Assembly: GCF_963675165.1 (NCBI RefSeq) | Contig: NC_087379.1 | Coordinates: 7,966,339 to 8,030,338 of the forward strand | Source of the DNA: Halichondria panicea | Lineage: Eukaryota > Porifera > Demospongiae > Suberitida > Halichondriidae | Reading direction: 5' to 3' | Length of the DNA stretch: 64,000 nucleotides | Made by a program: the position numbers and the translations under genes | The notes under the pieces: generated by a model | What the model was told of the DNA's origin: nothing | The model's input: only the letters and a program-made list of their open reading frames with translations | Database searches by the model: none | Shown here: positions 21,301-59,587 of the stretch, one piece after another | Position numbering within the stretch: the stretch's first letter is position 1 | How the letters are laid out: every line of letters starts with the position of its first letter

Positions 21301-22760
21301 GTAACAATCAGTGCCACCTGACTTACATTGTACCTACGTACAGTATCCATATAGAAATTGATTTAAAGCAGCTAAAACCAGTGCTCTAAAATGCTAAACC
21401 GAAAAATATACTGGGGCTGTACATTTGTATATGCATGATTGTAGCTCTTCTGGGCACACACACATTGAACTGTAAGTCAGGAGAGGCTTACACTGTGCGT
21501 CCATCGTCCACCAGGCCCCTCCAAGAGGCCCACAGAGTGGTGAGTAGCTGTAGCTCTCGAGACGGGTCCTGGGGGGCTGAGTTAGAGGACCACAACCCCA
21601 GGGAGCTGGCCGGCTTTTTCAGATATACAGTGTCCCCCAGTAGGGGGTCAATCACAACAGAGCCAATCTGTGTGTGTGTGTGTGTGGGGGGGGTATGGTG
21701 AGTGTGTGAGTGTGTGGGGGGAGGGGGGTATGGTGAGTGTGTGTGTTAAGTGTGTACACGGCATGCACACAGGTCCCAATGAACGGTTTGTGTACAAAGC
21801 AACCCCTCGACAAAGGCCACCTCGGTTTACTGACCAAAAACATGCTCCCCAAAAGTGTCTGTTATAAAAAGAGGTTCCGTAATAGTACGTTCACAGTAAC
21901 AATACGGTTCCGATTTATTACCTCAACTTTTTCCGTTGGTCTCAGTCGTGGCAAACCATCCACACTCTCTTCAAAGTATACCCGGGGGTCATCAAGGTCA
22001 GAGTTCACAGAGGTCACGTCGACAGCTTTATGAAACAAATTCCGTGCACTCAATCCGACCCTTGCCCTCAGGTAGGGGAAAATCCCCTTGAAACTAATTG
22101 CCCTAGGGCTCACTTTCAATCTACTCTCGGCCGTCTTGAAATAAACAGGAATGTGTAGAACTTTATCGAACGATGTGCTGACGATGACTTCCCCGCTGTA
22201 GGTACTGATGGTGTTTGGATTAGACACAGTCACGGTGAATTGGGCGCTGTGTTCAGGTTCGAGGGTGTGAGGGGGTGTGGAGTGGGCGGGAGGGTGGGGA
22301 GTGCCATTAGTGGTGGGGTGTACGTAGGACAGTTGGACACTCGTAAACGGGAGATTGGCACTCACAGAGTAGGAAATGATGGATATCTGCAGAGACAAAC
22401 TAACGTATCAGCAGGCCATAATTATGAATTTGTACGAACACTGTACAAAATGTACGTGTAACAGAAACACTACTAAGAGTCGTTGTAAGGATTATGACGT
22501 GGCTCATGTACATCATAAATACATGTAGTCAGTTCGAGCAGCTGTGGATATGTGCAAACAACTTGTACATACCGGTATAAGTACAAGTGTACATAATTAA
22601 GGCAGATGACAGTAGCATTACATTGAGAGGACTTATTGTAACAAGGAGCACTTACTTGCACAGGGTTGATGTTGTGCAGTGTGAAGGTCTTGGAGACAGT
22701 GTCCGACTGAGAGAGCACTCCAAACTCCAGAGAATCCTCGTCACTGTTCTCCAACAAGTA
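15302..22760 (-). pseudogene. TMEM131: TMEM131-like, copy 2
   Basis: Exons, 5' to 3' on the minus strand: 22760-22656, 22386-21922, 21667-21492, 21204-21069, a small exon near 20951-20922, 20667-20231, 19996-19798, 19449-19075, 18887-18170, 17902-15730 and 15571-15302. They encode luminal PapD-like beta-rich segments (FTVTVSNPNTISTYSGEVIV), one transmembrane helix in 19449-19075, then a long Lys/Ser/Pro/His-rich cytoplasmic tail. Frame lesions: insertion of ttaa at 20433-20436, a 1-bp deletion near 17204, a 2-bp insertion near 16979, and TAG at 16003-16005 where copy 3 has a Trp codon. The signal peptide and first PapD domain are not present. Likely inactive. Confidence 0.8.
19510..19724. mobile_element. 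MITE-like element in TMEM131 intron (copy 2)
   Basis: Same element and position as 3807-4020, with inverted ends around tatagcgggt and acccgctata. Confidence 0.65.
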
Positions 22761-22959
22761 CTGCAACCAATTAACCAACTATCAATGATGTTGTATATAC
22801 ATTGTAGATGTACATCTTTCAACAGCCATTAACTTAAGTATTGTTGATCCAATGTCAATGTCAACAATTTTATGATTTTCTGAAAGCTTAGAAAGAGACC
22901 TTTCAAATGAAAATTTCGTTGAGGTATGTCAGGTTAGTAGCATACATACAGGAAATGAC

Positions 22960-29959: not shown

Positions 29960-32285
29960 ATGGCCTCTGCACCTCTGGTTACGCCGCCGGCAGCACCACC
30001 ACCAAGACTGCCGAAGACCCAGCTGCACTACTGGTCCACCAACAATCCAGTGAGTTTTGCATGATAGATCTATATATAGATGTTCTGTTCTAGCTAGAGC
30101 TATGCAGTAAGGATGCATGCATGTTCTAGCTATGCTCTAGCTATGCCAGCACAATCAATAAATTAATTATGGTTTTGTGCAGCCGATAACAAAGAAGCAC
30201 ATAGTGAGCGTTCTCCGGTTTGGGAAGAGGAGTTGGGCCACAGACAAGTTCTTGTGCCCACAATGCTATCTGCAGCCGAGTGGTCCGGTCACCGTAAGTC
30301 TAAATGCAGTATTACTCTATAGCTGCAGCCTAAGTCGATTTAATATGCTCCTGAAATTATCATGGCTACACAATTATTTTTTTAAAGCTTGCAATTCATT
30401 TCCACCCCACAGACTGAGTTCTGGTGGAAGGGTGAAGCTCATCTTGGTGTCGGGGACCACTCTATGCGCGAGGCTACACGCTACATCAAACATCTGCAGT
30501 TTGATCATCGTAAGTAAAATTATGCAACTTTACATTGTCGTAGTATTTAGTTCCCATGCTTACAGATTGATTTTAATGATATTAATGGGTTTTCCCGGGT
30601 AAATTTTCCGATTTTACTTTGCGAAATTTTATCGCCTATAATTAAATATAATATGTAGCTTGGACAGCATAATTCATTAATTAGCTCATTAAGTACTTTA
30701 TAACAATAATTTTATATTGCTCCATTTCTTATTTTACAGACACCGGCGTTTCCAGTCCAACAGTGCTATTTCTTGACCACCAACTGAGAGATTTGGCCTA
30801 TGCCCAGTGGCAAAGGGCTGTAAGGTTTCCCCCCATTGTTGCACGGGGGCCACCAGGGCCACCAGGTGTTGATGGTTTGGATGGGATTGATGGCGTGGAT
30901 GGTGTGGATGGTAGGGCAGGGGTAGACGGGGTGAATGGTGTGGACGGGGTGAACGGTGTGGATGGTAGGCCAGGTGTGGATGGTAGGCCAGGGGTAGACG
31001 GGGTGAATGGTGTGGACGGTGTGGATGGTAGGCCAGGGGTGGACGGTGTGGATGGTGTAGATGGACAACGTGGAGAGAGAGGAGAGAGGGGAGAGAGAGG
31101 ACAAGGATTGGACACCAGAATGATAGAATCATTAATGGCACAAAATGTAAGTTGAATACATGCATGCATGCATGTGTATGTCCTGAAAGTTCCTTACAAT
31201 GAGGAAAAATTCCTTACAAATAAATTAATTTTATTGTGTATTACAATCATTGATTATTTTTTCACCGTGTCCTTTTCTTGCAGAGAGCGTTAACAAAAGT
31301 AGTACATCTACTCGCGGGACTACTCCCTCAACCTTTACCACCCACGGTTGAGGAGGCTTTAAGAGGGCTGACGACGGCTAGTGCTATGGAGGGGGCCGAA
31401 AATCCTAGATCAACTGTCGTCACCACCCCTCGTGGCCCTGTCGTCACCACCCCTCGTGGCCCTGTCGTCACCACCCCTCGCGGCCCTGTCGTCACCACCC
31501 CTCGTTGCCCTGTCGTCACCACCCCTCGTGGCCCTGTCGTCACCACCCCTCGTGGCCCTGTCGTCACCACCCCAAGTGGCCCTGTCGTCACCACCCCTCG
31601 TGGCCCTGTCGTCACCACCCCTCGCAGCCCTGTCGTCACCACCCCTCGCGGCCCTGTCGTCGTCACCACCCCTCACGGCCCTGTCGTCACCACCCCTCGC
31701 GGCCCTGTCGTCACCACCCCTCGTGGCCCTGTCGTCACCACCCCAAGTGGCCCTGTCGTCACCACCCCTCGTGGCCCTGTCGTCACCACCCCTCGCGGCC
31801 CTGTCGTCGTCACCACCCCTCACGGCCCTGTCGTCACCACCCCTCGCGGCCCTGTCGTCACCACCCCTCGTGGCCCTGTCGTCACCACCCCAAGTGGCCC
31901 TGTCGTCACCACCCCTCGTGGCCCTGTCGTCACCACCCCTCGCGGCCCTGTCGTCGTCACCACCCCTCGCGGCCCTGTCGTCACCACCCCTCGCGACCCT
32001 GTCGTCACCACCCCGAGTGGCTCAGGGTCCAACGCTGGACCGTCTGCTAGTTCATCACGTAAACGAAAGAGATCACCCGCAACGATGAATTTACATTACG
32101 ACTATAAAAAAAGGTAAGCGATTTCATGTGAAGAGTACTACAACAAATTTCTAAAAGGCCATGCATGCACTTCATATTTTGTGCATCTTATATACTTGTG
32201 TAAATTTCATCTCTTTCCCTTTCATACTTGCAGGAAAAATTTCGATGCTGCGCATGAACTTGAAGACAGGGGGAGGGGGGAATAA
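29960..32285 (+). CDS. Collagen-like Gly-X-Y protein with VVTTPRGP repeats and basic tail
   Basis: Six exons join in phase: 29960-30049, 30183-30293, 30413-30509, 30740-31146, 31284-32113 and 32234-32285, giving about 528 residues. Residues 1-135 are an unrecognised region with a Cys-x2-Cys (FLCPQCYLQ), several Trp/His residues and a conserved-looking core ([18 protein letters not shown]). Residues 136-222 are 29 uninterrupted Gly-X-Y triplets, mostly GVD, GVN and GRP, then GER. A helical segment ([18 protein letters not shown]) follows, then about 25 VVTTPRGP repeats (about 280-481) and a Ser-rich, basic RKRKRS motif near the end. There is no signal peptide or membrane segment, and proline in the Y position is rare, so this is not a typical secreted collagen. 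The ATG opens the first in-phase exon after a tatca-rich leader. Function unknown. Confidence 0.75.
31416..32020 (+). repeat. 24-bp coding minisatellite (VVTTPRGP)
   Basis: About 25 units of 24 bp. Three of them carry an extra GTC (at about 31656, 31803 and 31950), spaced exactly 147 bp, showing a six-unit higher-order repeat. All frames on both strands stay open through much of the array because of its base composition. Confidence 0.9.
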
Positions 32286-34600
32286 TTGTATAGTGAGTTG
32301 CTTGAGGGCAGGCGGGGGCCATATATGGGTGTTTCAATAATTCATACTTATATAGGAGGGACCTTTTCTTTTAAATATACAAACTAGATTTTCGATGTTG
32401 TTTGGCTGGCATATGGATTGTTCTGTATCTTGGGAATTCTTGCCTATAATTTGTAGTTACGTTGTTATGCGGTATAAAGGTTCTTCTTGTGTATAATATA
32501 GTGTTAGTGGGATGGTGCTTGGATTATGGATTGGCTTACTTCTATGGTGACTCTAGTTACTGCTGTATGTTATGTATAACGGCTTCTTCTTGACTATAAT
32601 TATGGAGTATTTCATTTGGTTTTCTCTCGCTGATTACGTATGTCGTAAAAAAAAAAAAAAAATTGGCAGACCATGTGCTACCCTTTTTAGTTTGAATTAT
32701 TAATGCTTGTGCACATTCTACAACATTGTGTGCATCAATTACTGTCATGCATGGAGTCATCTGCAGTCTATCATTTGCTGATATTCATATCTCTCTCTAC
32801 AAAACCTTTTGTAACCAAGCTTTGTAGCCTCTACAAGTCTGTGCATATCATAATTACTCTCATAACCGAACAATTGTCTTCCTATAAAAACATAATTACA
32901 TCTTGTATCAATTTTTTCTCTCATAACCGAACAATTGTCTTCCAAACATAGTATTACCTCTTTCTCTCATAACCGAACAATTGTCTTCCCATAATTATTA
33001 TTTCTCTCTCTCTCTCTCTCAACTCCGAACAATTCTCTTCCGAACATAATATTACTTCTCTTTCTCTCATAACCGAACAATTGTCTTCCCATAATTATAA
33101 CATAATTATTTCTTATTCTCTCTCTCTCAACTCCGAACAATTCTCTTCCGAACATAATATTACTTCTTTTTCTCTATAAATTACGAACAATTCTCTTCCT
33201 ATAATTCTTGTGCTAAGATGCCATGTCATGTCATACTCCATCTTCCATCCATGTATGTATGTATGTCAATTCTCAATTGTTTTTGTGCATCCTAAGCTAT
33301 CTATCTACAACTGCACATCTTTCGGTGACGACCAGCTGGGACTAATGGAACATCTCGAAGACCCTGGATCAATATGCAGTGCAGTGCAATGAACTCTCAA
33401 ACAACTCTAATATAAGCACTTCTATCTGAACACTATACGCAGCACTGCGTGGGACGTGTCTACTGTGGTAACCCCCTGATGATGCAGAAGACTCCTGGTT
33501 ATATACCGTATACTGAAGAACTCTTCAATCTATGACTATTCTACCTGGTGTACTCTCCATCATTGTCGTGGGCAACATACATTTCCAATGGCAGCCCCTC
33601 AACTCGAATTTGTGGCCACCAATATTCTCAACACTACTGGTTAAATTTTGATGCTGGAAAAACTTTTAACACTCGTCACCTCCCCTGATGATCGAAACAA
33701 AGGACTCTAAAAATCGTGGATGATCAAGTATGGTAACACAACACTCATATTATCATGCATGCAAGCCATGCACTGTCTCTCTACTCTCATAATTATAACT
33801 GTATCATGGAAGCGCACTGACTCTCTACTCTCATAATTATAACTGTATCATGGAAGCGCACTGACTCTCTACTCTCATAATTATAACTCTATATATCATA
33901 TCATGCACACTGACTATATCTATCTATGGGGTCACTACTCATAATTTAAATTTATATATAATTTGTAGTAATGTGGTCTGCCATTAATAAAATAAACGAT
34001 TTGCTAATAATTATATTGCCTTGCTTTAAGCTCCTTCTGGACTACAGCTAGCTGTGGACGTTGTGTTGTGTCTCTGTGGAGCTTGATGTTCTAGGAATTG
34101 TACTTGTGTCGATGATGTGTCTCCGTGGCTTGCTGTTCTGGTGACTGTACTTGTGTCGGTGGACGTTGTCTGTGTTGATTGTCGGGCTCGTTGTTCTGAT
34201 AGTGGGCTGTACTTGTGTCGGTTGATGTTGTTGGCTTAAGTTTGTTCTGCTCGGGACTGTGTCTACTGTAGAGCTTTGGTTGTTTGGTACGTTACACTGA
34301 CTTGTGTATCTCCTTAAGCTTTTTGATGTATCTCTTTTTTTTCATACGGTCCTAAAAGCCTAGGTAAAAAAAGCAATTGAGAAAAAATATCCCAACTTTT
34401 TTGTAGGATTTATGCCTGCCCCTTGACCTGCCTGCCCTCTAAAACTGCAAACTGCATGGGGGAGAATAATTATAATGCATGCATTGTATTAATTACTGGA
34501 AGCATTTATCTAGTATAGATAGCTAGTTAACTTTTAATTTCCGAGGCATTGCAACCGCGTTGAGCAGCTGAAATACAGTCAGTTTGATTGCTCTATGTTC
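32286..34600. other. Non-coding region with several minisatellites
   Basis: No convincing exon. Contents: presumed 3' UTR, a poly-A run at 32647-32661, a minisatellite built on accgaacaattgtcttcc at about 32862-33200 (alternating aaccgaacaattgtc and ctccgaacaattctc forms), three copies of a ~44 bp unit (ctctctactctcataattat) at about 33777-33890, and degenerate repeats around ctgtacttgtgtcggt at about 34090-34230. Confidence 0.6.
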
Positions 34601-37114
34601 GGCTATATACGCCTCGAGGCATAATCTGTTGCAAGATGGTGGGCGCTGCAAGTTTGCTGCTCGGAACTAATCCTGTCTCCGTCAACTTCTCCGTCGACAT
34701 CTCTCTTACAAGTCCCTCTCATCAAGTCTCTCACTCTCATTAAGTCTCTCTCATCAATGACCAACCAAGAGGGTATTGGTGTCTTAATTAATTGTGCAGG
34801 GGTATGTTTTCCTAATTGGTCTGTAAGGGGGTTGTGCATTCTTCTGTAAGGGGTTAGTTCTCAAAGGGGTTGTATATGCCTCTCTCTATATTAAAGGGGG
34901 CTTGGTTGTACTGATGCCTCCTAGCTCTAAGGAGACTTGGTTGTAGATCTACTGATGCCTCCTAGCTCTAAGGGGACTTGTTGTACTGATGCCTCTCTAT
35001 ATAAGGAGGTTTGGTTGTACTGATGCCTCTCTAAGGAAGTTTGTTGGTTGTGCACTGATTCCTCTGTAAGGGGGCTTGGTAGTGTATGCCTCTCTCTAAG
35101 AGGGTTGTGATTCCTCTGCAAGGGGGTTTGCCTCTAAGGCGGTTTGGCTGTGTAATTCCTCTGTATGGGGATTTGGTTTGTGTTTGTTGTCTCCATTGGT
35201 GGTTGGAACGGTCATGGAATAGCACTGGTGGGCTGGATGCTTCGGACTGCAGGTAGCTTGTAGCCCCTCGTGTAGAGTGGTCTATTCGACTGCAGATAGC
35301 ATTGTCTGGCCAGCTCAACTCCTTCGTCTGTAACCGTCGAGACCTCCTACCGCTCTTCACGACCCTGCAGCTGAGGTACCATCATACTATCTATATCTGC
35401 ATGCCCCCCTCCAAAGCCATTGCATTGCCTCGCCTGTGTTAATTAGGTTAGGCCAATTTTTTTGTGTTTCTACACTTGTAGTTTGATTTGTTAGGTATAT
35501 TATTATAGATAGCTTTTTTTTTCTTTTCACATAATCTTGCACCAGCCAGATTATCAGATCCATGAGCATTAGTATAGATCTAATACCCTCAAAGTGAGGG
35601 TAATGATTCATATATACTATACTCTTTTTGTGTAATCACTGTGTTTGTTTTTTTTGTTCGTTATCAGACCAAATTCTCCAATTTAGGCCAATTAGTAGTT
35701 GTAGTTCTGCACAGCCACTGTGTGGTTGTGCAGTTTAATTTTTCTTTGTGTACTTACATTTATATAAATATCCCTACATACTCGTTATAGAAGTTATAAG
35801 AATCAGGCTTTATCACAATTAAATGCATGCAAGATTATCAGAACCACCTTAATATAACCAAAAAAAAAAACCGGGTAACACCACCAAAAAAACCTTTTTT
35901 TATTTTAGAGTAAGAGCTTTCATTCGTGCGTACTTTACTTACTTTGTGTTCAATCTTGTTCGTGCTTTTTTAGGATAGTTTAGTTTTTTTGTTTCTGTTC
36001 TATGTTTGTCTTGTCGGCGAGGCTTGTATGCAATTGGTGGCGGGTGGTGGTGGCCTCTGCAATGATCACGCACACATCACATGACTAGTCACCACACAGG
36101 GGATACTAATCCCGGGGTCAATGCTAGGCTCTACACTCACTCTTACCAATGGCTGCAAAGCCAACTGAACTCAGGCAGTCCAGCTCAGAGCGAGCTCTTG
36201 TACTAACCAATGGCTGCAAAGCCAACTGTCCTGCTCAGAGCGAGCTTATCTAACCAATGGCAGGAGCACAAATGAAGTGCCTATTGCCCAATTCAAAGCC
36301 TCTTACTGAATGTTGGCTAATAGATCAGACTACTCCCAACAAAGGAGAATGTCACTTAACCAATGACAATGACAATGGCACAATATGCCTGAAAGCCTTA
36401 ATCAAGAGTTGCTGCATTGACCCCAGGGGTGTACTTATCATGCAATATATCATGTGTCATGCAGTGTGTATCACCATTATGATGCAACATGTGAGTATAT
36501 TGTAGTCAGTAACTGCCTGCATGATTGAGTTACCTATATCATCACTGATCATCGTAACGGTGACTCAGATTTGAACCCCTCCTAACCAGCACTCTCAGTG
36601 TTGCTCAGAGCGAGCTTAGGCTATTAACAGCACAAATCAAGTGCCTGTTATAATTTTAACTGACTAAGTGTGTTGCCACTTTAAGCTCTATGGAACTATG
36701 CTCTCTATAATCATATAGATCTAGCAGCATTGCAGCAGTGGGTCAAAGCACCAACTGTCGGCTGTGGTTGCTACCATGGCAACACTCTGTGTCATACATA
36801 TAATTATAATTGTACTTATCCACTCTCTGTATATCTTTTACAAGAACAGATGATCACATGAGCAACAGAGCTGCTTCGTTGGGAAAACACTGCATGCTGT
36901 CAGTGACAGGAAGAAGAGCACGGCACCTGTCTTGGCCTGTGTCAAGATCAATATGCCCCAGGGCACTGTACTGTGTCTTGTCTGTTGCTTGCTTGTATGC
37001 AGCCCATGCTGGCTAACCAGTGTCATGTACATGGTTGTGTGCATGTGCAATACTTTTTCCACAGGTTGCCATGTTAACAAATAGTTAGCCTGATCTGTAT
37101 TGATTTGCTTTCAG
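34601..37114. other. Unassigned region with short tandem repeats
   Basis: A degenerate minisatellite at about 34845-35180 repeats tgatgcctcc/tctctaaggggg-type units. At 36145-36265 the phrase accaatggctgcaaagccaa recurs, with ctcagagcgagct. There is no gene I can support, although the AT and dinucleotide composition varies. Confidence 0.45.
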
Positions 37115-37315
37115 CTTCATACGCCTCTGAAGGTTCAGTTCATGAGCCTGTCTCTCCAGTATACATAGTGATGGTGGCCGCTGTGACCCGTCAATTGCAA
37201 ACCAGTTCATCCACTATTAAGTTCCAATTGTGTACTTTGTATTATCGTGTTTCTTTACGCTTACCTGTGAATGGTCATGTGTGTACTTCTAGTACAAGCC
37301 CCCCAAGAACCAACA
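37115..37315 (+). other. Putative exon heading the microexon array
   Basis: The segment lies between an acceptor (tttcag) and the first ACA|gtaagc donor of the array and is open throughout (begins SYASEGSVHEPV, ends CTSSTSPPRTN). Its right end resembles the last unit of the array (MSSISPPRN at 42133-42170). It contains a worn array unit, so it may be where the array began. No upstream exon was found, so coding status is uncertain. Confidence 0.4.
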
Positions 37316-39340
37316 GTAAGCTCCATTGTGTACTTTGTAACCTCTTGATTTCAGCCCCGTGTGTGTGCGTACCTCAAGAACCAACAGTAAGCTCCATTGT
37401 GTACTTTAATTTGTAACCTCTTGATTTCAGACCTGTGTGTGTGCGTACCTCAAGAACCAACAGTAAGCTCCATTGTGTACTTTGTAACCTCTTGATTTCA
37501 GCCCTGTGTGTGTGCGTACCTCAAGAACCAACAGTAAGCTCCATTGTGTACTTTGTAACCTCTTGATTTCAGACCTGTGTGTGTGCGTACCTCAAGAACC
37601 AACAGTAAGCTCCATTGTGTACTTTGTAACCTCTTGATTTCAGCCCCGTGTGTGTGCGTACCTCAAGAACCAACAGTAAGCTCCATTGTGTACTTTGTAA
37701 CCTCTTGATTTCAGCCCTGTGTGTGTGCGTACCTCAAGAACCAACAGTAAGCTCCATTGTGTACTTTGTAACCTCTTGATTTCAGACCTGTGTGTGTGCG
37801 TACCTCAAGAACCAACAGTAAGCTCCATTGTGTACTTTGTAACCTCTTGATTTCAGACCTGTGTGTGTGCGTACCTCAAGAACCAACAGTAAGCTCCATT
37901 GTGTACTTTGTAACCTCTTGATTTCAGACCTGTGTGTGTGCGTACCTCAAGAACCAACAGTAAGCTCCATTGTGTACTTTGTAACCTCTTGATTTCAGAC
38001 CTGTGTGTGTTTGTGTACCTCAAGAACCAACAGTAAGCTCCATTGTGTACTGTGTAACCTCTTGATTTCAGACCTGTGTGTGTGCGTACCTCAAGAACCA
38101 ACAGTAAGCTCCTTTGTGTACTTTGTAACCTCTTGATTTCAGACCTGTGTGTGTGCGTACCTCAAGAACCAATAGTAAGCTCCATTGTGTACTTTGTAAC
38201 CTCTTGATTTCAGCTCTGTGTGTGTGCATACCTCAAGAACCAACAGTAAGCTCCATTGTGTACTTTGTAACCTCTTGATTTCAGACCTGTGTGTGTGCGT
38301 ACCTCAAGAACCAATAGTAAGCTCCATTGTGTACTTTGTAACCTCTTGATTTCAGACCTGTGTGTGTGTGCGTACCTCAAGAACCAACAGTAAGCTCCAT
38401 TGTGTACTTTGTAACCTCTTGATTTCAGACCTGTGTGTGTGCGTACCTCAAGAACCAACAGTAAGCTACATTGTGTACTTTGTAACCTCTTGATTTCAGA
38501 CCTGTGTGTGTGCGTACCTCAAGAACCATCAGTAAGCTCTATTGTGTACTTTGTAACCTCTTGATTTCACACCTGTGTGTGTGTGTACCTCAAGAACCAA
38601 CAGTAAGCTCCATTGTGTACTTTGTAACCTCTTGATTTCAGCCCTGTGTGTGTGCGTACCTCAAGAACCAACAGTAAGCTACATTGTGTACTTTGTAACC
38701 TCTTGATTTCAGACCTGTGTGTGTGTGTACCTCAAGAACCAACAGTAAGCTACATTGTGTACTGTGTAACCTCTTGATTTCAGCCCTGTGTGTGCGTACC
38801 TCAAGAACCAACAGTAAGCTCCATTGTGTACTTTGTAACCTCTTGATTTCAGACGAGTGTGTGTGTACCTCAAGAACCAACAGTAAGCTCCATTGTGTAC
38901 TTTGTAACCTCTTGATTTCAGCCCTGTGTGTGCGTACCTCAAGAACCAACAGTAAGCTCCATTGTGTACTTTGTAACCTCTTGATTTCAGACCTGTGTGT
39001 GTGCGTACCTCAAGAACCAACAGTAAGCTCCATTGTGTACTTTGTAACCTCTTGATTTCACACCTGTGTGTGTGTGCGTACCTCAAGAACCAACAGTAAG
39101 CTCCATTGTGTACTTTGTAACCTCTTGATTTCAGACCTGTGTGTGTGTGTAACTCAAGAACCAATAGTAAGCTCCATTGTGTACTTTGTAACCTCTTAAT
39201 TTCAGTCGTGTGTGTGCGTACCTCAAGAACTAACAGTAAGCTCCATTGTGTACTTTGTAACCTCTTGATTTCAGACCAGTGTGTGTGCGTACCTCAAGAA
39301 CCAACAGTAAGCTCCATTAATAGTTCTACATGTGCTGTGG
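37316..39340 (+). repeat. Microexon-like tandem array, 71-bp family
   Basis: About 28 units of ~71 bp. Each has a good acceptor (cctcttgatttcag), a 32-nt block (e.g. 37355-37386, reading CCTCAAGAACCAACA at its end) and a good donor (ACA|gtaagc). A few units have changed the acceptor to ttcac (e.g. near 38570 and 39060). The 32-nt block has no stop in any forward frame, while the spacer does. Confidence 0.85.
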
Positions 39341-42170
39341 AATATTCTGTCTCTTTTTGATTTCAGAACAGTGTGTATGCGTACCTCAAGAACCAACAGT
39401 AAGCTACATTAATAGTTCTACATGTGCTGTGGAATACTTTGTTTCTTTGATTTCAGACCAGTGTGTGTGCGTACCTCAAGAACCAACAGTAAGCTACATT
39501 AATAGTTCTACATGTGCTGTGGAATATTCTGTCTCTTTGATTTCAGACCTGTGTGTGTGTGCGTACCTCAAGAACCAACAGTAAGCTACATTAATAGTTC
39601 TGCATGTGCTGTGGAATATTCTGTCTCTTTGATTTCAGACCAGTGTGTGTGCGTACCAACAGTAAGCTACATTAATAGTTCTGCATGTGCTGTGGAATAT
39701 TCTGTCTCTTTGATTTCAGACCAGTGTGTGTGCGTACCTCAAGAACTAACAGTAAGCTCCATTAATAGTTCTTCATGTGCTGTGAAATATTTTGTCTCTT
39801 TGATTTCAGATCAGTGTATGTGCGTACCTCAAGAACCAACTACTAGTAAGCTCCATTAATAGTTCTACATGTGCTATGGAATATTCTGTCTCTTTGATTT
39901 CAGACCAGTGTGTGTGCGTACCTCAAGAACCTACAGTAAGCTACATTAATAGTTTTACATGTGCTGTGGAATATTCTGTCTCTTTGATTTCAGACCAGTG
40001 TGTGTGCGTACCTCAAGAACCAACAGTAAGCTACATTAATAGTTCTGCATGTGCGGTGGAATATTCTGTCTCTTTGATTTTAGACCAGTGTGTGTGCGTA
40101 CCTCAAGAACCAACAGTAAGCTCCATTAATAGTTCTGCATGTGCTGTGGAATATTCTGTCTCTTTGATTTCAGACCAGTGTGTGTGCGTACCTCAAGAAC
40201 CAACAGTAAGCTCCATTAATAGTTCTACATGCGCTGTGGAATACTCTGTCTCCTTGATTTCAGACCTGTGTGTGTGTGTACCTCAAGAACCAACAGTAAG
40301 CTCCGTTAATAGTTCTTCATGTGCTGTGAAATATTCTGTCTCTTTGATTTCAGACCAGTGTGTGTGCGTACCTAGAACCAACAGTAAGCTCCATTAATAG
40401 TTCTACATGTGCTGTGGAATATTCTGTCTCTTTGATTTCAGACCAGTGTGTGTGCGAACCAACAGTAAGCTACATTAATAGTTCTGCATGTGCGGTGGAA
40501 TATTCTGTCTCTTTGATTTGAGACCAGTGTGTGTGCGTACCTCAAGAACCAACAGTAAGCTCCATTAATAGTTCTGCATGTGCTGTGGAATATTCTGTCT
40601 CTTTGATTTCAGACCAGTGTGTGTGCGTACCTCAAGAACCAACAGTAAGCTCCATTAATAGTTCTACATGCGCTGTGGAATACTCTGTCTCTTAGATTTC
40701 AGACCTGTGTGTGTGCGTACCTCAAGAACCAACAGTAAGCTCCATTAATAGTTCTACATGTGCTGTGGAATATTCTGTCTCTTTGATTTCAGACCAGTGT
40801 GTGTGCGTACCTCAAGAACCTACAGTAAGCTACATTAATAGTTTTACATGTGCTGTGGAATATTCTGTCTCTTTGATTTCAGACCAGTGTGTGTGCGTAC
40901 CTCAAGAACCAACAGTAAGCTACATTAATAGTTCTGCATGTGCGGTGGAATATTCTGTCTCTTTGATTTTAGACCAGTGTGTGTGCGTACCTCAAGAACC
41001 AACAGTAAGATCCATTAATAGTTCTGCATGTGCTGTGGAATATTCTGTCTCTTTGATTTCAGACCAGTGTGTGTGCGTACCTCAAGAACCAACAGTAAGC
41101 TCCAATAATAGTTCTACATGCGCTGTGGAATACTCTGTCTCCTTGATTTCAGACCTGTGTGTGTGTGTACCTCAAGAACCAACAGTAAGCTCCGTTAATA
41201 GTTCTTCATGTGCTGTGAAATATTCTGTCTCTTTGATTTCAGACCAGTGTGTGTGCGTACCTAGAACCAACAGTAAGCTCCATTAATAGTTCTACATGTG
41301 CTGTGGAATATTCTGTCTCTTTGATTTCAGACCAGTGTGTGTGCGAACCAACAGTAAGCTACATTAATAGTTCTGCATGTGCGGTGGAATATTCTGTCTC
41401 TTTGATTTGAGACCAGTGTGTGTGCGTACCTCAAGAACCAACAGTAAGCTCCATTAATAGTTCTGCATGTGCTGTGGAATATTCTGTCTCTTTGATTTCA
41501 GACCAGTGTGTGTGCGTACCTCAAGAACCAACAGTAAGCTCCATTAATAGTTCTACATGCGCTGTGGAATACTCTGTCTCTTTGATTTCAGACCTGTGTG
41601 TGTGCGTACCTCAAGAACCAACAGTAAGCTCCATTAATAGTTCTACATGTGCTGTGGAATATTCTGTCTCTTTGATTTCAGACCAGTGTGTGTGCGTACC
41701 TCAAGAACCTACAGTAAGCTACATTAATAGTTCTACATGTGCTGTGGAATATTCTGTCTCTTTGATTTCAGACCAGTGTGTGTGCGTACCTCAAGAACCA
41801 ACAGTAAGCTACATTAATAGTTCTGCATGTGCTGTGCAATATTCTGTCTCTTTGATTTCAGACCAGTGTGTGTGCGTACCTCAAGAACCAACAGTAAGCT
41901 CCATTAATAGTTCTGCATGTGCTGTGGAATATTCTGTCTCTTGATTTCAGACCAGTGTGTGTGCGTACCTCAAGAACCAACAGTAAGCTCCATTAATAGT
42001 TCTACATGCGCTGTGGAATACTCTATCTCTTTGATTTCAGACCAGTGTGTGTGTGCGTACCTCAAGAACCAACAGTAAGCTACATTAATAGTTCTGCATG
42101 TTCTGTGGAATATTCTGTCTCTTTGATTTCAGACCAGTGTGTATGTCTAGTATAAGCCCTCCTAGAAACA
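39341..42170 (+). repeat. Microexon-like tandem array, 90-bp family
   Basis: About 31 units. The splice-flanked 32-nt block is the same as on the left, but the spacer is different (ttaatagttctacatgtgctg and onward), giving ~89-90 bp. Since 90 is divisible by three, unspliced runs stay open as a 30-residue repeat containing CVCVPQEPTVS. A higher-order repeat is visible: the variant tgtgcgaaccaacag occurs at 40441 and 41330, 889 bp apart, with matching neighbours. The array ends with a 38-nt block at 42133-42170 followed by gtgagt. Confidence 0.85.
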
Positions 42171-43003
42171 GTGAGTTCCCTGGTGATAGCAAGCTAGGGT
42201 GTGTAATCCGCTCGCCTTAAAGTACTCCAAAATATGAGAAGAGACGAAATTGCTAGTAAAGTGTTTAAACATTGCCTAGAGAAGGAACAATGAACTGTAC
42301 ACTTGATTATAATTATTGTTATTTTAGCATTATTTGTTTTGTGCCTGTTATTTATGAATCGGTTTGCTTGTATTATAATTTGTGAATGTCTTGATACATA
42401 ATTTGTATATAATTATGTGCAGTATCAGTAACGTATTTAATTATTATGATGGTTATAATTATATATCCCCATGCCATGCACGGATTGTTGGCTGTGTATA
42501 TTGTTTATACCTTATATCACCTCATGTATTAATATTCTGTCTACATTCCTTGTATGTACCGTTATCATTCTATTATAGCACCAGCCTCGGTTAGGACGCC
42601 CTCTTTTATAACGCCTATAATTATACTACCATATAAAATCACGTACATTGTTTTTAGAAAAATAATTATTTTTTACTGGTTCTATAATTAGAACGATTAC
42701 GGTATGCATGTATAAGTATACATTACCCGGCAGGTCATAATTGTTAATGGTTAATTCATATAATGCCAAGACACAATAATGTCATCAGCTAGCTACTAAA
42801 CACATACAGCTCTCAAAATGACAACTGAACGATCTACTAGTAGCTACACGATAACAATAATAAACTAGATAGCTGGCTAGATAATCACTCGCTAAAATGC
42901 TGATACTAGAGCTAATAGCAGACAACTCAATTGAAATGAGGTTAAGTTGAAATCGTTATCCAAAATTCATAGTCCAAATCGTTGCAGAGGTCAGAGGGGG
43001 GCT
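42171..43003. other. Intergenic region after the array
   Basis: No exon seen. From about 42715 it is the shared TMEM131 3' flank (also at 2900, 15020 and 54370). Confidence 0.5.
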
Positions 43004-43274
43004 TTACTCAGTCTTGCTTAGTGGGGGTTCAGATATCTGTTGGGCCCAGGAAAGAAGTGTTGAACTATCAGCGTTGCTCAAGCTCCAGATACTTTTGGTT
43101 CTCAAAGAGGTCATAGGTGGTGGCTGAGAGTGTGGTGTCCTCGGAGGGTGAGGTTGGGTCGGTGGTGCCACTGCTGATAGGTAGGGGGCTCATATTGGAG
43201 GTGATGTCATTACTGTAGAATGGAGCAGTGTCTGTTGACCACATGTTGGGGCTGTCCCAGTTAGGGCTAGTGCT
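43004..43274 (-). pseudogene. TMEM131: TMEM131-like last exon only (fourth copy)
   Basis: Matches the 270-nt last coding exon of copies 2 and 3 with one extra base (ttttgg for tttgg near 43095), which breaks the frame. Homology goes on into the intron to about 43340 and then stops; no other TMEM131 exon follows. It lies immediately downstream of the selenoprotein K coding exons on the same strand. Confidence 0.8.
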
Positions 43275-43517
43275 CTGCAGAGAGATCATGATCAGATAAC
43301 ACACACAGTTGTACAATGTAGGTCTGCTGAAACATACAGTACTTGCATGCAGTACAGTACAAGTTTGTGTGCGGTCAATGTACACTATAAAAAAGGATAT
43401 CGTATTAAACACGTGTATCAACTTCCTATCATAAAACACACCACCCACCCACCACACACACCCACACAATACCTTCCTCATCCACCGCCCACACACACAC
43501 ACACACCACCCACACAC

Positions 43518-43891
43518 CTTCCTCATCCACCGCCCATGGGGGGAGGTCCAGCACCACCACCAGCACCCTTACCAACACGACCAATACGTCTCCCTTGATC
43601 AGCACTGCACACACAAAGGTAGGAATAATAAATACTAAAATTGGACACAATACAAAACAAAACAGTATAAGAGACACTAGAGAGCAGGGGAGGGTTGAAA
43701 CACACTGGCATGATCAGGGTGTGTGTAACTTACAACAAGACAAAGAAGTTAATGACAGCCCAGAACAAGTCAACGATACCGTCCACACTCAGCCATGACC
43801 TGTTCTCAAGGACTTTACCTGCACACAGTAGAGTATGGAGTGTGTGTCAGCTAATATCACACTCACACTTACCTCCTGATAAATACACCAT
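43518..43891 (-). CDS. SELENOK: Selenoprotein K, UGA-containing
   Basis: Three minus-strand exons: 43891-43873 (MVYLSG), 43818-43734 (GKVLENRSWLSVDGIVDLF, then WAVINFFVL) and 43604-43518. The last reads GRRIGRVGKGAGGGAGPPPM, then GGG, an in-frame TGA at 43525-43523, then GGA AG and a GT. This matches the selenoprotein K plan: short N-terminus, one transmembrane helix, glycine/arginine-rich cytosolic part and a terminal PPPM-x-GG-Sec-GR. SELENOK is an ER membrane protein linked to ER-associated degradation and to DHHC6 palmitoylation. The linker after the helix is shorter than in vertebrates. The final exon completing the Arg codon and stop, and the SECIS element, were not found. A copy of the TGA-bearing 20-mer also lies at 43471-43491. 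Confidence 0.75.
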
Positions 43892-44067
43892 AGCTTCCTT
43901 GAATCTTCTTGTATGGAACTACTATAGTACTAGCCAATCAGTCTACAATCAGCTCTTCTATATTGTATGGAGACTACACCCATTCTACTGTGGGCAGTAG
44001 AAAGGCGTGGTCTCGATCTTGTGAGGGCAAACAAACAACAAAGGGGCGTATCTGCTACCTGATAATA

Positions 44068-47000
44068 ATGGCCGACGTACACAGTGCTGTCTGGGCTGGT
44101 GACTTGAGAGCTTTGCGAGATGCCATCAGGAGGGGAGAGGATGTCAACAGTGTGAATAATTGGGTAAGCTGGTTTGTGGGTATGTAGAGCTGAAGCTGTG
44201 AAAGTTTATTTTTGCTGTCGTGCTATAAATTTAATACCTACCCAATCCGACAAACTCAACCAATGATGTATTCAATACATAATGCATACTTAAATAAATG
44301 TACGGCATTTACATTGAACTTCCTGGTCTTGGCCGTTCAACTGTACCCTAGTACAGCGCCAACTCAGCTACGACTCAGACTGAACGTAATTTTAGGTCCT
44401 AAATTAACGCCAGCAGTTGCTGTAATAATTTTTATGGCTTATAAAAGGCATAACAAGGCAAGTCACCTTTACTTGGCCTATACCATTGTTATGTACCATT
44501 GTTATGTGCATGCTTTTGATCAGCACTCCTGACTATCGGGAAGCAGCTTCCTACAGAGAATAAAAATCACACAGTAGATCCACCTATAAGCTAGAAAGGT
44601 TAGAGTTAGTGTTATGTACTTTCATACGTGCACTGGTGGATGACGTTAAATGCAACCACTCTATTAAATAATTCCAATCCCCTCTATCACACAGATGTGT
44701 TGTCAATAATATTATACTCTCGCTCTTGTAGCTAGGTTACATACACATATATAGACATTACCGGCATTTTCAATTCGAACCCTTATTATCAGTGTTTTGT
44801 CTATAATTTTACGCTTATCTTGCTTATTTATATCTAAGTTGATGCTGCATAAATTAATGTTCTTGTTAATTATATTGTACAGTCACTATAAAATATGATT
44901 GTTTTGGGTGCTTAAATTTCTAAATGGAGGCTGAAAATTAATGAAGTTGATAACATAGCACATCATTGGATAGTTGCATTTTTGCTCTTTGCAAATCCCT
45001 TTCCTTTACTTTATTTATGGTCTATCGCACAGATGTGTTCTCAAAAGTTACTGTATGCTCTCACTCTTGTAGAATGGGTGGACTCCACTCATGATGGCAG
45101 CCAAGTATAGTCACACTGACTGTATTAGACAGCTGCTCTCCTCAGGAGCTGTGGTGGACCTCGCTGACAAGGTGAGTATCTGATACTAAACTGATGTGTT
45201 TATAGGAGTCATTATTAATCATTTAGGAATTATAATTATACATGGACATTGCCTTAAACTCACTTCTATGCTGATCGAATAACTGTTGACAAGAATTCCA
45301 TCGAATTGAATTGGGTGGGACTATTACTTTGGTTTGTGTGTGGATTTAATCTGCCATCGCTCAACTACGAGCTAGCTTGCTGAAAGGTTAGAGTTAGTGT
45401 TTGTACTTTCGTGCGTGGGTGGATGATGTCAGATGCGACCTATTAATAGCCAATCCTCTATATTTACTTTATTTGTAATTACAGCATCAACTCTGACTGA
45501 ATTCCATTACTTAAGTCCTCCAAGGTTGCTGTAATTAGAAAACGTGATTATTTGTGATGTCAGGCTCAAGGCAGTCGGCTTTTCTTTTATTATGCACATG
45601 CATTTGATTTGTAGAGCTGCTGTAAAATACAGAGACGAAAAATCTAACTGTACAGTTGGTCCAATGCATACTGAAAGATTGCACTCAACACTAGAATAGC
45701 TGTGCGCTTAGCGCCACCATAATATTTTTGAGGTTATAAAAGTTGATTTGGGCGCTGTAAACTACGCTCACTGCACACTCAGTTTAGAGCAAATGGTAAA
45801 TTCAAAAAATAAGTGTAACTATGATCTATCACACAGATGTGTTGTTAAAAGTTATTATTATGCTCTCACTCTTGTAGCGTGGGTGGACTCCACTCATAAT
45901 GGCAGCCAGTGAAGGTCACACAGACAGTGTTAGACAGCTGCTCTCCTCAGGAGCCGTGGTGGACCTGGCTGACGAGGTGAGTATCTGATAGTGTTTATAG
46001 GCAGCATGTTTGTGACCATTAATTTTCATCATTTGGTAAATGAAATACTTGCGCATGTACTTACAATTATGCACATTGCCAGTATTTTAATTGTTACGTT
46101 TTGCTTATAATTTTTACGCTTATCTTGCTTAATTATTTGTGTCTAAGTTGACGAACTGGGCTACATAATTTTACGCTTATCTTACTTATTTGTGGGCTAC
46201 ATACGTTTTCTTGGGTATGTTGTACACAAATGAATAATTATGATACGTACGTAGCACTTAAAAAGGTTGTACAGTTTAATAACATAGCACATCATTGGAT
46301 AGTTGCATTTTTGCTCTTTGCCAATCCCTTTCCTTTACTTTATTTATGGTCTATCGCACAGATGTGTTCTCAAAAGTTACCGTATGCTCTCACTCTTGTA
46401 GGATAGGTGCACTCCACTCTATTGGGCAGCCTGTAAAGGGCACACTGATTGTGTTAGACAGCTGCTCTCCTCAGGAGCCGCGGTGGACCTGGCTAACAAT
46501 GTGAGTATCTGATACTATGTCTATAGGCAACATGCTGGACATTACCCGAGGCCGTGCCGCGGCTAGCGGGTATAGTAGTCGTCTGGTCTGTTTGTTTGTG
46601 TTTTGTGTGTGACACAGTCTACTCCCCTGGATTCCATAGCACTGTGTTTACAGCATGGATAGCCTTCACACAAGTTATTAGTTTTCAGATTTTGATGTTA
46701 AAGCTTCGTAAGCTTGGACTTACACGGCTAGCTAGCTACACCTGGCCTTTATTTCGAGGTACGTATTTACAGCTAAAGTGATCCCGTACCAGGAACAATG
46801 GAACAGGGTCACTAATTTAAAAGTACATGTAGAAAGCCTAGATATGATTTTGGTTGTTGTACGAGCTAGCTTGCTGAAAGGCTAGAGTTAGTGTTTGTAC
46901 TTTCGTGCGTGGGTGGATGATGTCAGATGCAACCACTCTATTATAGTAAATAATGCCAATCCTCTTTATTTACTTTATTTGTAATTACAGCACCAACTCT

Positions 47001-49122
47001 GACTGAATTCCATTATTTAAGTCCTCCAACGGTTGCTGTAATTAAAAGACGTAATTATTTGTGATGTCAGGCTCAAAGCAGTCGGCTTTTCTTTTATTAT
47101 GCACATGCATTTGATTTGTAGAGCTGCTGTTAAATACAGAGACGAAAAATCAAACCGTACAGTTGGTCCACTGCATACTGAAAGATTGCACTCAACACTA
47201 GAATAGCTGTGCGCTTAAGCGCCACCATAATGTTTTGGGGGTTATAAAAGTTGATTTAGGCGCTGTAAACTACGCTCACTGCACACTCAGTTTGGGGCAA
47301 ATGGTAAATTCCAAAAATAAGTGTAACTATGATCTATCACACAGATGTATTGTCAGAAGTTATTATTATGCTCTCACTCTTGTAGGATGGGCGGACTCCA
47401 CTTATGAAGGCAGCTAGGGAAGGTCACACTGACAGTGTTAGACAGCTGCTCTCCTCAGGAGCCGTGGTGGACCTGGCTGACAAGGTGAGTATCTGATTGT
47501 GTTTATAGGCAGCATGTTTGTGACCATTAATTTTCATCATTATTTTGGTAAATGAAATATTTGCGCATGTACTTACAATTATGCACATTGCCAGTATTTT
47601 AATTGTTACGTTTTGCTTATAATTTTTACGCTTATCTTGCTTAATTATTTGTGTCTAAGTTGACGAACTGGGCTACATAATTTTACGCTTATCTTACTTA
47701 TTTGTGGGCTACATACGTTTTCTTGGGTATGTTGTACACAAATGAATAATTATGATACGTACGTAGCACTTAAAAAGGTTGTACAGTTTAATAACATAGC
47801 ACATCATTGGATAGTTGCATTTTTGCTCTTTGCCAATCCCTTTCCTTACTTTATTTATGGTCTATCGCACAGATGTGTTCTCAAAAGTTACCGTATGCTC
47901 TCACTCTTGTAGAATGGGTGGACTCCACTCTATTGGGCAGCCAGTAAAGGGCACACTGACTGTGTTAAAGAGCTGCTCTCCTCAGGAGCCGTGGTGGACC
48001 TGGCTAACAAGGTGAGTATCTGATACTATGTCTATAGGCAACATGCTGGACATTACCCGAGGCCGTGCCGTGGCTAGCGGGTATAGTAGTCGTCTGGTCT
48101 GTTTGTTTGTGTGTGACACAGTCTACTCCCCTGGATTCCATAGCACTGTGTTTACAGCATGGATAGCCTTCACACAAGTTATTAGTTTTCAGATTTTGAT
48201 GTTAAAGCTTCGTAAGCTTGGACTTACACGGCTAGCTAGCTACACCTGGCCTTTATTTCGAGGTACGTATTTACAGCTAAAGTGATCCCGTACCAGGAAC
48301 AATGGAACAGGGTCACTAATTTAAAAGTACATGTAGAAAGCCTAGATATGATTGTGGTTGTTGCTTCTTTGCTTATCCTAGCCCCAGAACATACTTCTAA
48401 CACTCCAGTCTTCTTTGCTGACATTGCTGTGATCCTAGTCCATATACACTACTCAAACTCTAGGCTAGCTCCTGTTACTTGCTGCTTAGGAAACAGGAAA
48501 ATAATTTAGTATACTTAACAAACAGCTTTACATGTACCTATACTTCTTACAGTAGTTAATGACTGAACAGAGCTGTCATTTGTACCTAAACAGATAACTC
48601 TTAATGTGCTATTACCATGCCAGTATCGCTCTGTCAGCAAAGTACATGTCATACGCATTAGACCACTTTACCTCTTACAATGTACGTCTCATCCCTTCAT
48701 ATGATCATCATCACAGAATGGAAAGACTGCTCTGATGAAGGCCAAGAGATCACCTCACTCTAACCCTTCAGTAATAAAGCTGTTGGAGGAAGCTACTGAA
48801 TCACATGTGAGTCCATACCTCAATAATGCACACACTGATCACAGAGGAGGTACAATTAGCCTCCTCTGCATTGATCATAAGTGTTTTAGTTTAAGAGTTT
48901 GTTGTTCCTGAATTACAAATACTGTAACATTCATCAAAAACACAAAAACAATGTGTTTTCCTTTCACCATATAAGATATAGTTTCACTAATCAGCTCTTA
49001 TGTTTCTATTTAATTAGTGGACTAAACCCCTGCATGTATGGAGTGCAAACTACAGTTTCTAATTTAACACACCCAAACAAGCATACTTACCATTACATGT
49101 GCCCCCCCCACACACACACACA

Positions 49123-54277: not shown

Positions 54278-57200
54278 GGCTATTCTCTAATGTGGTTTGC
54301 TCGGGTTTGTTTACATTCTTTCATCACAACCACATACTCTCTTAGAGTGTCTGCATTCTCATTGCATGCATGTGAGTATACATTACCCAGCAGGTCACAA
54401 GTTGTTAATGGTTAATTCATAATGCCAAGACACAATAATGTCATCAGCTAGCTACTAAACACATACAGCTCTCAAAATGACAACTGAACGATCTACTAGT
54501 AGCTATACACGATAACAATAATAAACTAGATAGCTGGCTAGATAATCACTCGCTAAAATGCTGATACTAGAGCTAATAGCAGACAACTCAATTGAAATGA
54601 GGTTAAGTTGAAATCGTTATCCAAAATTCATAGTCCAAATCGTTGCAGTAGGTCAGAGGGGGCTTTACTCAGTCTTGCTTAGTGGGGGTTCAGATTTCTG
54701 TTGGGCCCAGGAAAGAAGTGTTGAACTATCAGCGTTGCTCAGGCTCCAGATACTTTGGTTCTCAAAGAGGTCATAGGTGGTGGTTGAGAGTGTGGTGTCC
54801 TCGGAGGGTGAGGTTGGGTCGGTGGTGCCACTGTTGATAGGTAGGGGGCTCATATCGGAGGTGATGTCATTACTGTAGAATGGAGCAGTGTCTGTTGACC
54901 ACATGTTGGGGCTGTCCCAGTTAGGACTGGTGCTCTGCAGAGGAGAGAGAGGGAGTATCATGATCAGAATAATATACACAGTGTATACTGTACGTCTGCT
55001 AAAACATACACACACACATATATATACCACAAGGAATGTACAGTCATAAAACAATCTACAAAAAAAAAAAAAATAATGTCTCACCTTTCCCTCCCCAGCA
55101 GGCCAGCCAGCACTCCTAGACCTTCCTGGTGCCAGACTCTTGCTGGAGACAGAGCCCTTCTCCCCGCGAGACGAGAACTGTTGACCCGGAGCACCCACGG
55201 CCGAGACAGCAGGGAAATCAGTCACAAACTCTCCTCCTAGATCACTCTCCATGCTGTAAGTACGGCTCCTTCTTGGTCTCTCTGGCAATAGATTACTTTG
55301 ACGATAGGGAATCAAGTCAGGGTCTTCCGGGGACTGCTCGCTGAAGTCTGGATTGTCCCATCCTCTCGATCCAATAGAGGAGGGGCTAACATCTGGTCCA
55401 AACTTGGCAGGGGACTAGGTTGATCTCTTTCCATAGCAGCAATAGCTCTTTCCCGTTCAATAAGTTTCATAATGTATTGTCTCTTTCTCAAATACTGCTG
55501 GTCATATACTCCCCCCTCCTCCATGGGTGGCACTTGGAGCCTGTGTGAGTGATGGTGGTGGTCCCACGGTCCTTGTGGACGATAGCTGTACTCTCGTGCT
55601 CTCTGCATGCACAGGTGATGCATATACGCTTCCATATTCGGATGCATGTGTTGTCTGCCATGTCCGCTCTTTGGTGCCATCATTGGTGAGCGACCACGAT
55701 AGTGCTCTCGACTATGACGCCCCATAGGCATCGGTGGGAAGTCCTCAGGCCCACTGTACGGTTCGTCCATTGCCATTGGATTGTGGTGTTCAAGTGAGGG
55801 ATAGTCACTGTACGGCATATGCGATCCCTCGGGGAAATACGGTAAAGGTGGTGAGGGGGTCATCGATTTGCCTCCTCGTAACGGATGTGGTCTCTTAAAG
55901 TACGACCCCTCAGGGTAGGGACGCATGTGGGCATCATCAGGAGTTGGTGGTAAACCAGGGGGTGGTCCTCTGGGCTGGGAGTTGTGGTCGGGACCAAATT
56001 TCCTCGGATCTGCTCGTAGACTTGGGCCAGATTTCGGTGCAAAAGTTGGAGATGGATAAAATGGTTCTGCGTTCAGGGAGAGTGTAGATAGAGGCGGCTT
56101 GAACTCATTGTCGCTTGAATTATGAGAAGATTCATCTTTCTGTGGACTCAGTGGTGCTTCAATTGGTTTCGTCATTTCAGTTTCACTTTGCTCGTCTTGT
56201 TCCGGGAGTTGGTAGTCATCATCTTCCTGTCCATCGTCAGGTTTGTCACGATCGCTCTTCTGCTTCCTACGCATAATGGCCGAGTTATTGGAGAGTAAAG
56301 AAGCAGCCAGCTCGTGAGGAGAAGTGGGCAGACTCTGAGAACTGCCTTTACCAGAGTCCACACTGAGTAGAGTATGTGTCACACCATCCGTTTCAACCAA
56401 GCTATCAGAGTCCATTGGAATTACGATAACAGGTTCTTCAATCAACTCGCTCCTTATGATAGGTACAACATGCAGAGTTTGTGGCCGCTGTCTAACGTTC
56501 TCATCTGATTTCAGCTGGTGTTCGAGAAGATTGTCCTCAACTAGTTGTGTGATCTTCTCAACAACGGGTGATTTAATTTTCTCGGAAGGTTTTTTGCCAG
56601 TACTGATATTCTTAGTACCGTAAGTGGCGGCTTGATCTGGTGTTCTTGAAAACGAGTCAGTGAACGTCTCTTTAGTTTCTTGTTTTGTGGTCTTAGTTGT
56701 ACGACCAGTCTTGATGGCAGTACTGGGAACAGCTGGGGACACGAGTACCGGTATTTCATTGCCCTTGTTTGGGGATACGTCGATAATAGTCGTCTCTAAT
56801 AGTTTATTGAGTTCATTCTCAGTAGTTTTGACACATTGCACGTTGGTTTCAGTTTCAGTTTGTACCGTATCTTCAAGAGGAGGTGTGCTGTCGTTGTCAA
56901 GTTGCTCAGTGGAATTAGACGAAGAGGAATCTTTAAATGAACCAACTAGTTGCTTAGCGTCTGTTTTGTCCGTATTCTTTTCTTTCTCTCGTTCTTTGTC
57001 TCTCCCTCTCTCCTTTTTACGAGCTTTCTCCTCTTTTTTGATCTGTTGTCGAGGTTTCCTCTTTCCTTTCATTCGAACGGTACTAATTGGCGGTTCTTTT
57101 TTGTCGATCAGTTCTGTTCTTGGTGACATGACCTTTGTACTCTCGGGCGTGTCGGGAGGATGGATGGTTTGGCCAGTGTTGGGCTCCTTGGTGACAGGTG

Positions 57201-58864
57201 GTGGAGGCTTCTTCACTTCAGCTACCACAGTTACCACCTACACAGAGAGATAGAAGTATAAACTGTAAATCAAGTATTATGTGGGGAATGGTGTATTTAC
57301 ATGCATGTACATGTCACTTAAAAAACAAGTACAGACCTGACAAGCGTTTGTGTATTATTTCCGATTATTATAGGAATATTAACGGCTTACGCATGTACAT
57401 GTACATGTACAGTACACAGAATATACAAATTACAATGACAATTATTAGTGTTCAAACATAATACGTATATATAATGGCTTACACATACAGTGTGTGCAAT
57501 ATTAATTTATCTAATTAAGAGACTGACCTGGCTAGGTGTTTTCACTTCCTCCGACTTGTCGGTACCCGTAGATGCCGAATCACTGTTGCTAGAAACAATG
57601 CTACTCTCCGAGACCTTCCTCTCCAGCTCCTTCCGTCCGGACGGGGGGAGGGGTGAACTATCAGGCGTTATCTTTAGAGGCTTCAATTTTCGTACGATTT
57701 TTGATTTTCTCACATTCGCTGGTAGAGAGCTCGGATTAGTTTCCGTGGGTGTTTTTGAAATGATCTCGCCTTTGGACGCGCTTTTTTCGGGGATGGTTTT
57801 CTCGCTGCTACGCTTCAGTTTGGTAGGGGATGAGCAGAGTTGCGCTGGTGCACCGGTAGTTGGAGTACAAGGTTGGGTCTGCTCTCTAGCTCCAGTGTGA
57901 TTGTCCGTGCCTGTTCTAGGTGGGGAGATGACACTCGGCTCAATAACAGGAGCAATGGGGATCTTGAGGGACATTCCCTTCGGCGTGGAAGTAACAGCCG
58001 TGTGTGATCTAGACGGAACAGGTTGCAATGAGGTGATAGTTTCCTGTGATGATGGTTTTCTCTCGATCTTGTTTTGTACCACACGATGTCTGAGAGTGGG
58101 TATTTCTTGAGCAGTAGTGGGGGTTACTAGCGGCTCAGGCTTAGGTTTAGATACGGGAGTGTTCTTATCGGTAGAGGGTTTAGGAGGCTCTCGAGTTACT
58201 TCAATTTTCATAGATTGACCAGTGGACTCAGACTTCTGGTTAGAACTGCACGAAAGAGAAAAACACAGATAAAAAAGAACAACCATATACAATTAAATGT
58301 AGGTAGCAAATAAACTTTACTTCATACAAAATAGATGCATACTTCATTGAGTAAAAAACAGAGAAAAACAAGCAACTAATCGTAAGTATAAATATGGATG
58401 TACACAACGAACTCTGCACTCTGCACTGACCTTTTCTCTCCTAATTCCTGGACCTTCTTGGACAGCACATCCATAGACTTTGACAACTTCTTCAAATCGA
58501 ATACTTCTCCGGAGCCTTTCGTTGCTTTCGCCTCAGTTTTATAGGACACAGAACTACTGCTCCTCATTCCGAACTTGGTCTGCACGAATACTGTAGCTAC
58601 AAGGCAGAGTATCACAAGCAGCCAAAACGGTACAGACAACCAGGCCAGTGTTTTCTCCCATTCGGGCCGAGGCTGTAAGGCAATACACGCCGCTAATAGT
58701 TGGTGGGGGAGGATGGCTAGTAGAGGGTAGAGGAACTCGTTGCCAGTGGAGGTTTGTAATCGTAGAGTGGTGGAGACTTGGGTCAGTGTGTAATCTGGAG
58801 TGAACCTGCACGTATGGATGATGAGATTTGTAATACACTGTTGCAAGATACGTACTGTACATCA

Positions 58865-59529: not shown

Positions 59530-59531
<2 letters not shown>

Positions 59532-59585
<54 letters not shown>
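59532..59585. repeat. (GT)n microsatellite
   Basis: Expanded counterpart of 4487-4527. A further GT run at 60994-61060 abuts the acceptor of exon 60993-60818. Confidence 0.95.

Positions 59586-59587
<2 letters not shown>

Follow-up and report, generated by a model that had tools for sequence, protein, structure and literature searches.

The window, a stretch of 64,000 nucleotides of the Halichondria panicea genome (C3:7966339-8030338; 131 Mb in 39 contigs), harbors a long tandem array on its + strand, preceded by a collagen-like gene (29960-32285; introns of 119-230 nt, read by eye) that ends 5 kb before it and followed by the truncated tail of a Death-domain gene. The features of this region are the following:

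34966..37290, + strand: 5' flank co-duplicated with the array, which looks non-coding from its gap lengths (paralog alignment).
37293..37315, + strand: first block of the array, at its 5' edge, partial (23 nt) and preceded by TTCTAG (sequence; aligned in seven loci and a C16 fragment).
37316-42170, + strand: minisatellite-like array of head-to-tail tandem units.
37316..39318, + strand: 71-nt unit family, 28 units, each with a 39-nt spacer and a 32-nt block (TRF, segmentation).
39265..42142, + strand: ~90-nt unit family, 31 full units, each with a 58-nt spacer and a 32-nt block (TRF limits, overlapping the 71-nt family).
39882..41688, + strand: 10-unit block and its second copy, offset by 889 bp, which differ at 3 of 918 aligned bases.
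42133..42170, + strand: last, divergent block of 38 nt, followed by GTGAGT; it carries a CTAGTA-AAGCC segment that is present at the 5' edge too.
42216..42293, + strand: last 25 codons and stop of the truncated Death-domain gene (comparison with diverged loci).

The units of this and all other loci were called by a cyclic two-consensus segmentation. Each unit consists of a spacer running from GTAAG to TTTCAG (39 or 58 nt) and a 32-nt block, and in the window 28 units of 71 nt precede 31 units of ~90 nt, giving 59 full units between two partial end blocks. The earlier note had described about 60 units in two spacer families (71 and ~90 nt) at 37316-42170, and the position of the array is confirmed. 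The TRF scores of the array are 3623 and 4868, and the tandem array as such is far beyond chance. Head-to-tail units of tens of bases (71 and 90 nt) in many copies (59 full) are also what characterizes a minisatellite (VNTR).

It had further been claimed that each unit keeps an acceptor, a stop-free 32-nt block and a donor. This design holds in outline but is not universal, as GT, AG, a stop-free block and a block length of 32 nt are found together in only 41 of the 59 window units (253/339 units over the seven loci described below). Taken singly, GT is kept in 59/59 window units, in every case as GTAAG, AG in 57/59, and the two together in 57/59 (325/339 over the seven loci); 54/59 blocks are stop-free in three frames (305/339), and 44/59 are exactly 32 nt long (276/339), a length that is not a multiple of three, unlike most exons of micro-exon genes.

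A genome search with the 90-nt unit returned 343 matches; those listed all fall on C3, within seven loci (one of them the window) from 7.485 to 8.049 Mb. There are thus six paralogous arrays besides that of the window, on the same contig and within 0.6 Mb. The number of scored units is 25 in locus A, 41 in B, 52 in C, 65 in D, 32 in E, 59 in W (the window) and 65 in F, giving a total of 339; seven six-base stubs at array ends were left out, and up to two of the units counted in locus F are false ones from within an inserted element. Unit number thus varies 2.6-fold between paralogs (25 to 65), as is typical of a VNTR. The order of the families is constant in all seven loci, with the 71-nt units first and the 90-nt units last, and the two families are somewhat interleaved at their boundary in loci B, C, and F. 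The inserted element of locus F (~500 bp, with long inverted repeats) lies inside a spacer of the array (L020 about 3880-4480; C3:8043.9-8044.5 kb). An exact 22-nt pattern of the unit had 0 matches in genome_contigs and viral_contigs, collections that may lack entries from this genome or one very close to it.

Comparison of the individual units revealed how the arrays have grown. Of 166 distinct unit strings, 36 recur in two or more loci, a count that includes the six-base end stub. In addition to the 10 units present twice in the window, with 3 mismatches in 918 bp, 6 units are present twice in locus E and 2 units three times in locus F, which is the homogenization by block duplication known from minisatellites. 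The repeated 6- and 10-unit blocks show recent amplification, and slippage or unequal exchange, acting in addition to segmental duplication, would be expected to leave such a pattern of repeated blocks. Moreover, a CTAGTA-AAGCC-like segment is found at both ends of the array and is lacking in the inner units, which suggests that all units derive from one ancestral unit that underwent an internal loss before the expansion.

The flanks of the arrays were duplicated together with them. A genome-wide comparison places the 5' flank at 8 sites only, namely the seven arrays and a diverged fragment on C16 (84-87% in two pieces). This fragment contains the first block, a shortened spacer, one 37-nt block and part of the next spacer, after which unrelated DNA follows; no gene was recognized around it or around the other 5' flank copies (8 genome matches). 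When the paralogs are aligned, only 12 of the 77 gap runs in the 5' flank are divisible by three, as compared to 8/8 and 9/9 (17/17) in two ORFs of the upstream collagen-like gene used as control, and the flank accordingly looks non-coding. The collagen-like gene itself contains a repeat of 12 protein letters whose length differs in frame between paralogs.

On the 3' side, six diverged loci (H, I, J, K, M, and N) match the window only from 42210 or 42217 onward and are preceded there by a sequence that they share among themselves, not by the array. In locus H, the only copy tested, the frame of the shared sequence is open and matches Pfam Death (E 1.4e-6). Since the diverged loci carry Death-domain sequence at the position of the array, the array abuts the tail of a truncated gene. 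Upstream in the window, the frame of this tail meets three stops, one of them inside the last block, and no coding continuation was found 3' of the array beyond the 25-codon tail behind these stops. The seven paralogs hardly differ in the tail (pairwise diversity of 0.3-0.6% in 42170-42370), which is no clear sign of selection because part of the DNA after it is equally invariant. Other elements were observed in the surroundings, including a dispersed short element with a short inverted end repeat at about 42557-42705, to which numerous contigs show partial matches, often several; next to an ankyrin/ZU5 gene, a long tandem repeat whose period is close to 786 bp, found in the window (45016-48045) and in loci A-F, H, I, and N with differing copy number; and copies of a TMEM131-like gene region at 3160-8000, 15300-22800 and 54700-62100 (repeated ORFs), which form part of a larger segmental duplication and have a weak match to the Pfam TMEM131L domain (E 0.0052).

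We then considered how often a splice-like design would arise by chance. A donor and acceptor pair on either strand was present in 82/4000 (GTAAG) or 156/4000 (GTRAG) dinucleotide-shuffled units of 71 nt and in 120/4000 or 358/4000, respectively, of those of 90 nt, while the 32-nt block of the shuffled unit was stop-free in 367/4000 (71 nt) and 394/4000 (90 nt). Overall, the chance is 2-9% for the pair and 9-10% for the stop-free block. Of 135 TRF rows with a unit length of 40 nt or more, taken from the window and L009-L035, 39 pass a looser test for the pair; 38 of these belong to the array described here and one to another array, a 56-nt repeat of 6 copies at 12156-12510 of the window. The design is unusual for a repeat, yet it is a single draw that was amplified and not 60 observations. 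The presence of the same block and signals in both spacer families was also considered as a sign of constraint and rejected, since a single replacement of inner spacer sequence in an ancestral unit would suffice to explain it.

These signals could be those of a real exon that was tandemly duplicated along with its flanking introns, the gene being lost afterwards. Growth of the minisatellite from a real exon is possible, although we regard it as somewhat less probable than a start from non-exonic sequence, and it would be a special case of the minisatellite explanation favored below and not its opponent. TTCTAG before the first block and GTGAGT after the last are in line with such a relic, as is the low frequency of the donor and acceptor pair in shuffled units; against it, the few genome matches of the 5' flank reveal no gene around them, and the signals may also be of chance origin.

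If the blocks were spliced as exons, they would be expected to change less than the spacers, a check that the earlier note had proposed. This comparison, made on 338 units (one junk unit of locus F was dropped from the 339 of the unit counts), showed no consistent protection of the block, although all counts of this kind are rough because the units share ancestry and are not independent. Among distinct units, substitutions per site were 0.047 in the block vs. 0.023 in the spacer of the 71-nt family and 0.020 vs. 0.040 in the 90-nt family, where the block thus has half the value of the spacer; the two families differ in opposite directions. In a circular-shift test, in which the block or the splice core was slid around the unit (units with >15 mismatches left out), block substitutions were ordinary in both families (45/71 and 27/90 placements as low or lower in the 71- and 90-nt family, respectively), so the block is not more conserved than the spacer in the way that a micro-exon gene would require. 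Block indels were high (68/71 and 84/90 placements as low or lower), and only 3/17 and 5/18 distinct block indels are divisible by three; length changes of 2 suggest that many of them are steps in a GT run.

The splice core (GTAAG and TTTCAG) gave a mixed result in the same test. Its substitutions lie above most placements in the 71-nt family (67/71 as low or lower) and are few in the 90-nt family (4/90, uncorrected), and its indels are few in both (2/71 and 9/90). GTAAG is unchanged in 116/116 scored units of 90 nt. For substitutions, the core thus shows no protection in the 71-nt family and marginal protection in the 90-nt family. The few core substitutions and invariant GTAAG of the 90-nt family, together with the few core indels of both families, are the only trace that favors splicing.

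These results bear on the reading of the array as a set of working microexons, in which + strand transcripts would splice variable numbers of 32-nt blocks into a protein or RNA of variable length. Besides the marginal protection of the 90-nt core, this reading can draw on the retention of GT and AG in most of the 339 units, on the largely stop-free blocks and on the length of the spacers. From 52/76 matches to the TCP1 family, taking neighboring pairs with a small profile gap or overlap, we roughly estimated 34 introns of about 55 to 1189 nt in this genome. The 58-nt spacer is close to the shortest of them (about 55-56 nt), while the 39-nt spacer is below all 34, which come from one gene family. 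The latter is not decisive against splicing, as an intron of 37 bp has been reported in a ribosomal protein gene of a sponge (PMC3412847). Nevertheless, the microexon reading appears improbable: protection of the block is not consistent, most of its indels are not divisible by three, the core of the 71-nt family shows no protection against substitution, the gaps of the 5' flank mark it as non-coding, and no coding sequence was found to continue 3' of the array past the 25-codon tail behind stops. Furthermore, the summed block length modulo 3 is not constant across loci (0 in B, D, E, and W; 1 in A, C, and F). A version in which the seven loci would yield paralogous RNAs or proteins, with array size and exon choice determining their length and frame and the weak protection of the 90-nt core being a trace of this use, seems slightly less probable again.

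It has also been suggested that the array is a splice-site sponge or another non-coding RNA, whose transcript would bind splicing factors or back-splice into circles, with the number of units acting as dose. The high density of recurring donor- and acceptor-like sites on a single strand would suit such a role, which we nonetheless consider very unlikely, given that in the 71-nt family the signals are kept no better than the rest of the unit and that unit number differs 2.6-fold between paralogs. A comparison of 33000-45000 with Rfam gave no match, and neither consensus folds unusually on either strand (z 0.96 to 1.86, weaker than shuffles); an RNA structure or known RNA family was rejected on these grounds.

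The least probable reading is that of an unspliced coding repeat, either as a 30-residue repeat on the + strand of the 90-nt part or as a repeat frame on the - strand. Stop-to-stop frames reach 197 residues on the + and 194 on the - strand, and two Pfam models exceed their cut-offs, MtrF with 25.2 bits against 22 (none of its stretches passes singly) and NOT2_3_5_C with 37.8 bits against 27 (in 2 stretches). The frames are broken by units of 69, 73, 81, 84, and 88 nt, and the Pfam scores, which sum over identical repeats and point to unrelated families, are probably artifacts of repetitive input. Coding on either strand was rejected for these reasons.

Of the three readings offered by the earlier note, the minisatellite with homogenized signals fits best, while neither the microexon array nor the splice-site sponge is supported. 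Because change is about as frequent in the exon-like blocks as in the spacers, we consider it most likely, with a probability of roughly 80% judged from the DNA, that the array is a non-coding minisatellite that was spread by segmental duplication and whose splice-like signals were kept by homogenization. Acceptor, block and donor would then look conserved because the whole unit was homogenized and not because splicing was selected. In the order of events that we infer, a stretch somewhat longer than the present unit and carrying splice-like signals would have been duplicated in tandem; an internal segment, still carried by both array ends, would have been lost, with expansion following; and the middle of the spacer may then have been replaced in one unit, the founder of the 90-nt family. 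Slippage or unequal exchange would have added units one at a time or in blocks of as many as 10, and the array, presumably without function, would have been carried inside a segmental duplication to seven loci, beside the cut-off tail of the Death-domain gene.

Among the literature titles and abstract beginnings listed, none describes such an array. The closest parallels include human minisatellites of recent segmental duplications, whose copy number also differs between paralogs and which alter gene structure, some of them by activating cryptic splice sites (PMC2812944). The human units average 30 bp x 4 and alter known genes, in contrast to the 71- and 90-nt units in tens of copies found here. 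The many very short exon-like blocks in a row resemble schistosome micro-exon genes, described as having 10-20 exons of 6-81 bp, mostly multiples of three, introns of ~100 bp to 5 kb and verified proteins (PMC10526429); the near-identical 32-nt blocks and 39- or 58-nt spacers of H. panicea differ from these. Dscam likewise has tandem exon arrays, although of diverged, mutually exclusive coding exons in a known gene (PMC1397879), whereas the blocks here are homogenized and without a reading frame. CeRep25B of C. elegans is, similarly, a minisatellite with a suggested link to splicing, but its unit is 24 bases long and nearly palindromic, lies in introns in 75% of cases and has no exon-like blocks (PMC4039745).

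Sixty regular acceptor-block-donor units resemble strong evidence for microexons, yet they represent one unit amplified, which calls for caution when such arrays are read. If the units were spliced, they would form a very large array of near-identical microexons and would offer a way to study how splice signals spread in tandem repeats.
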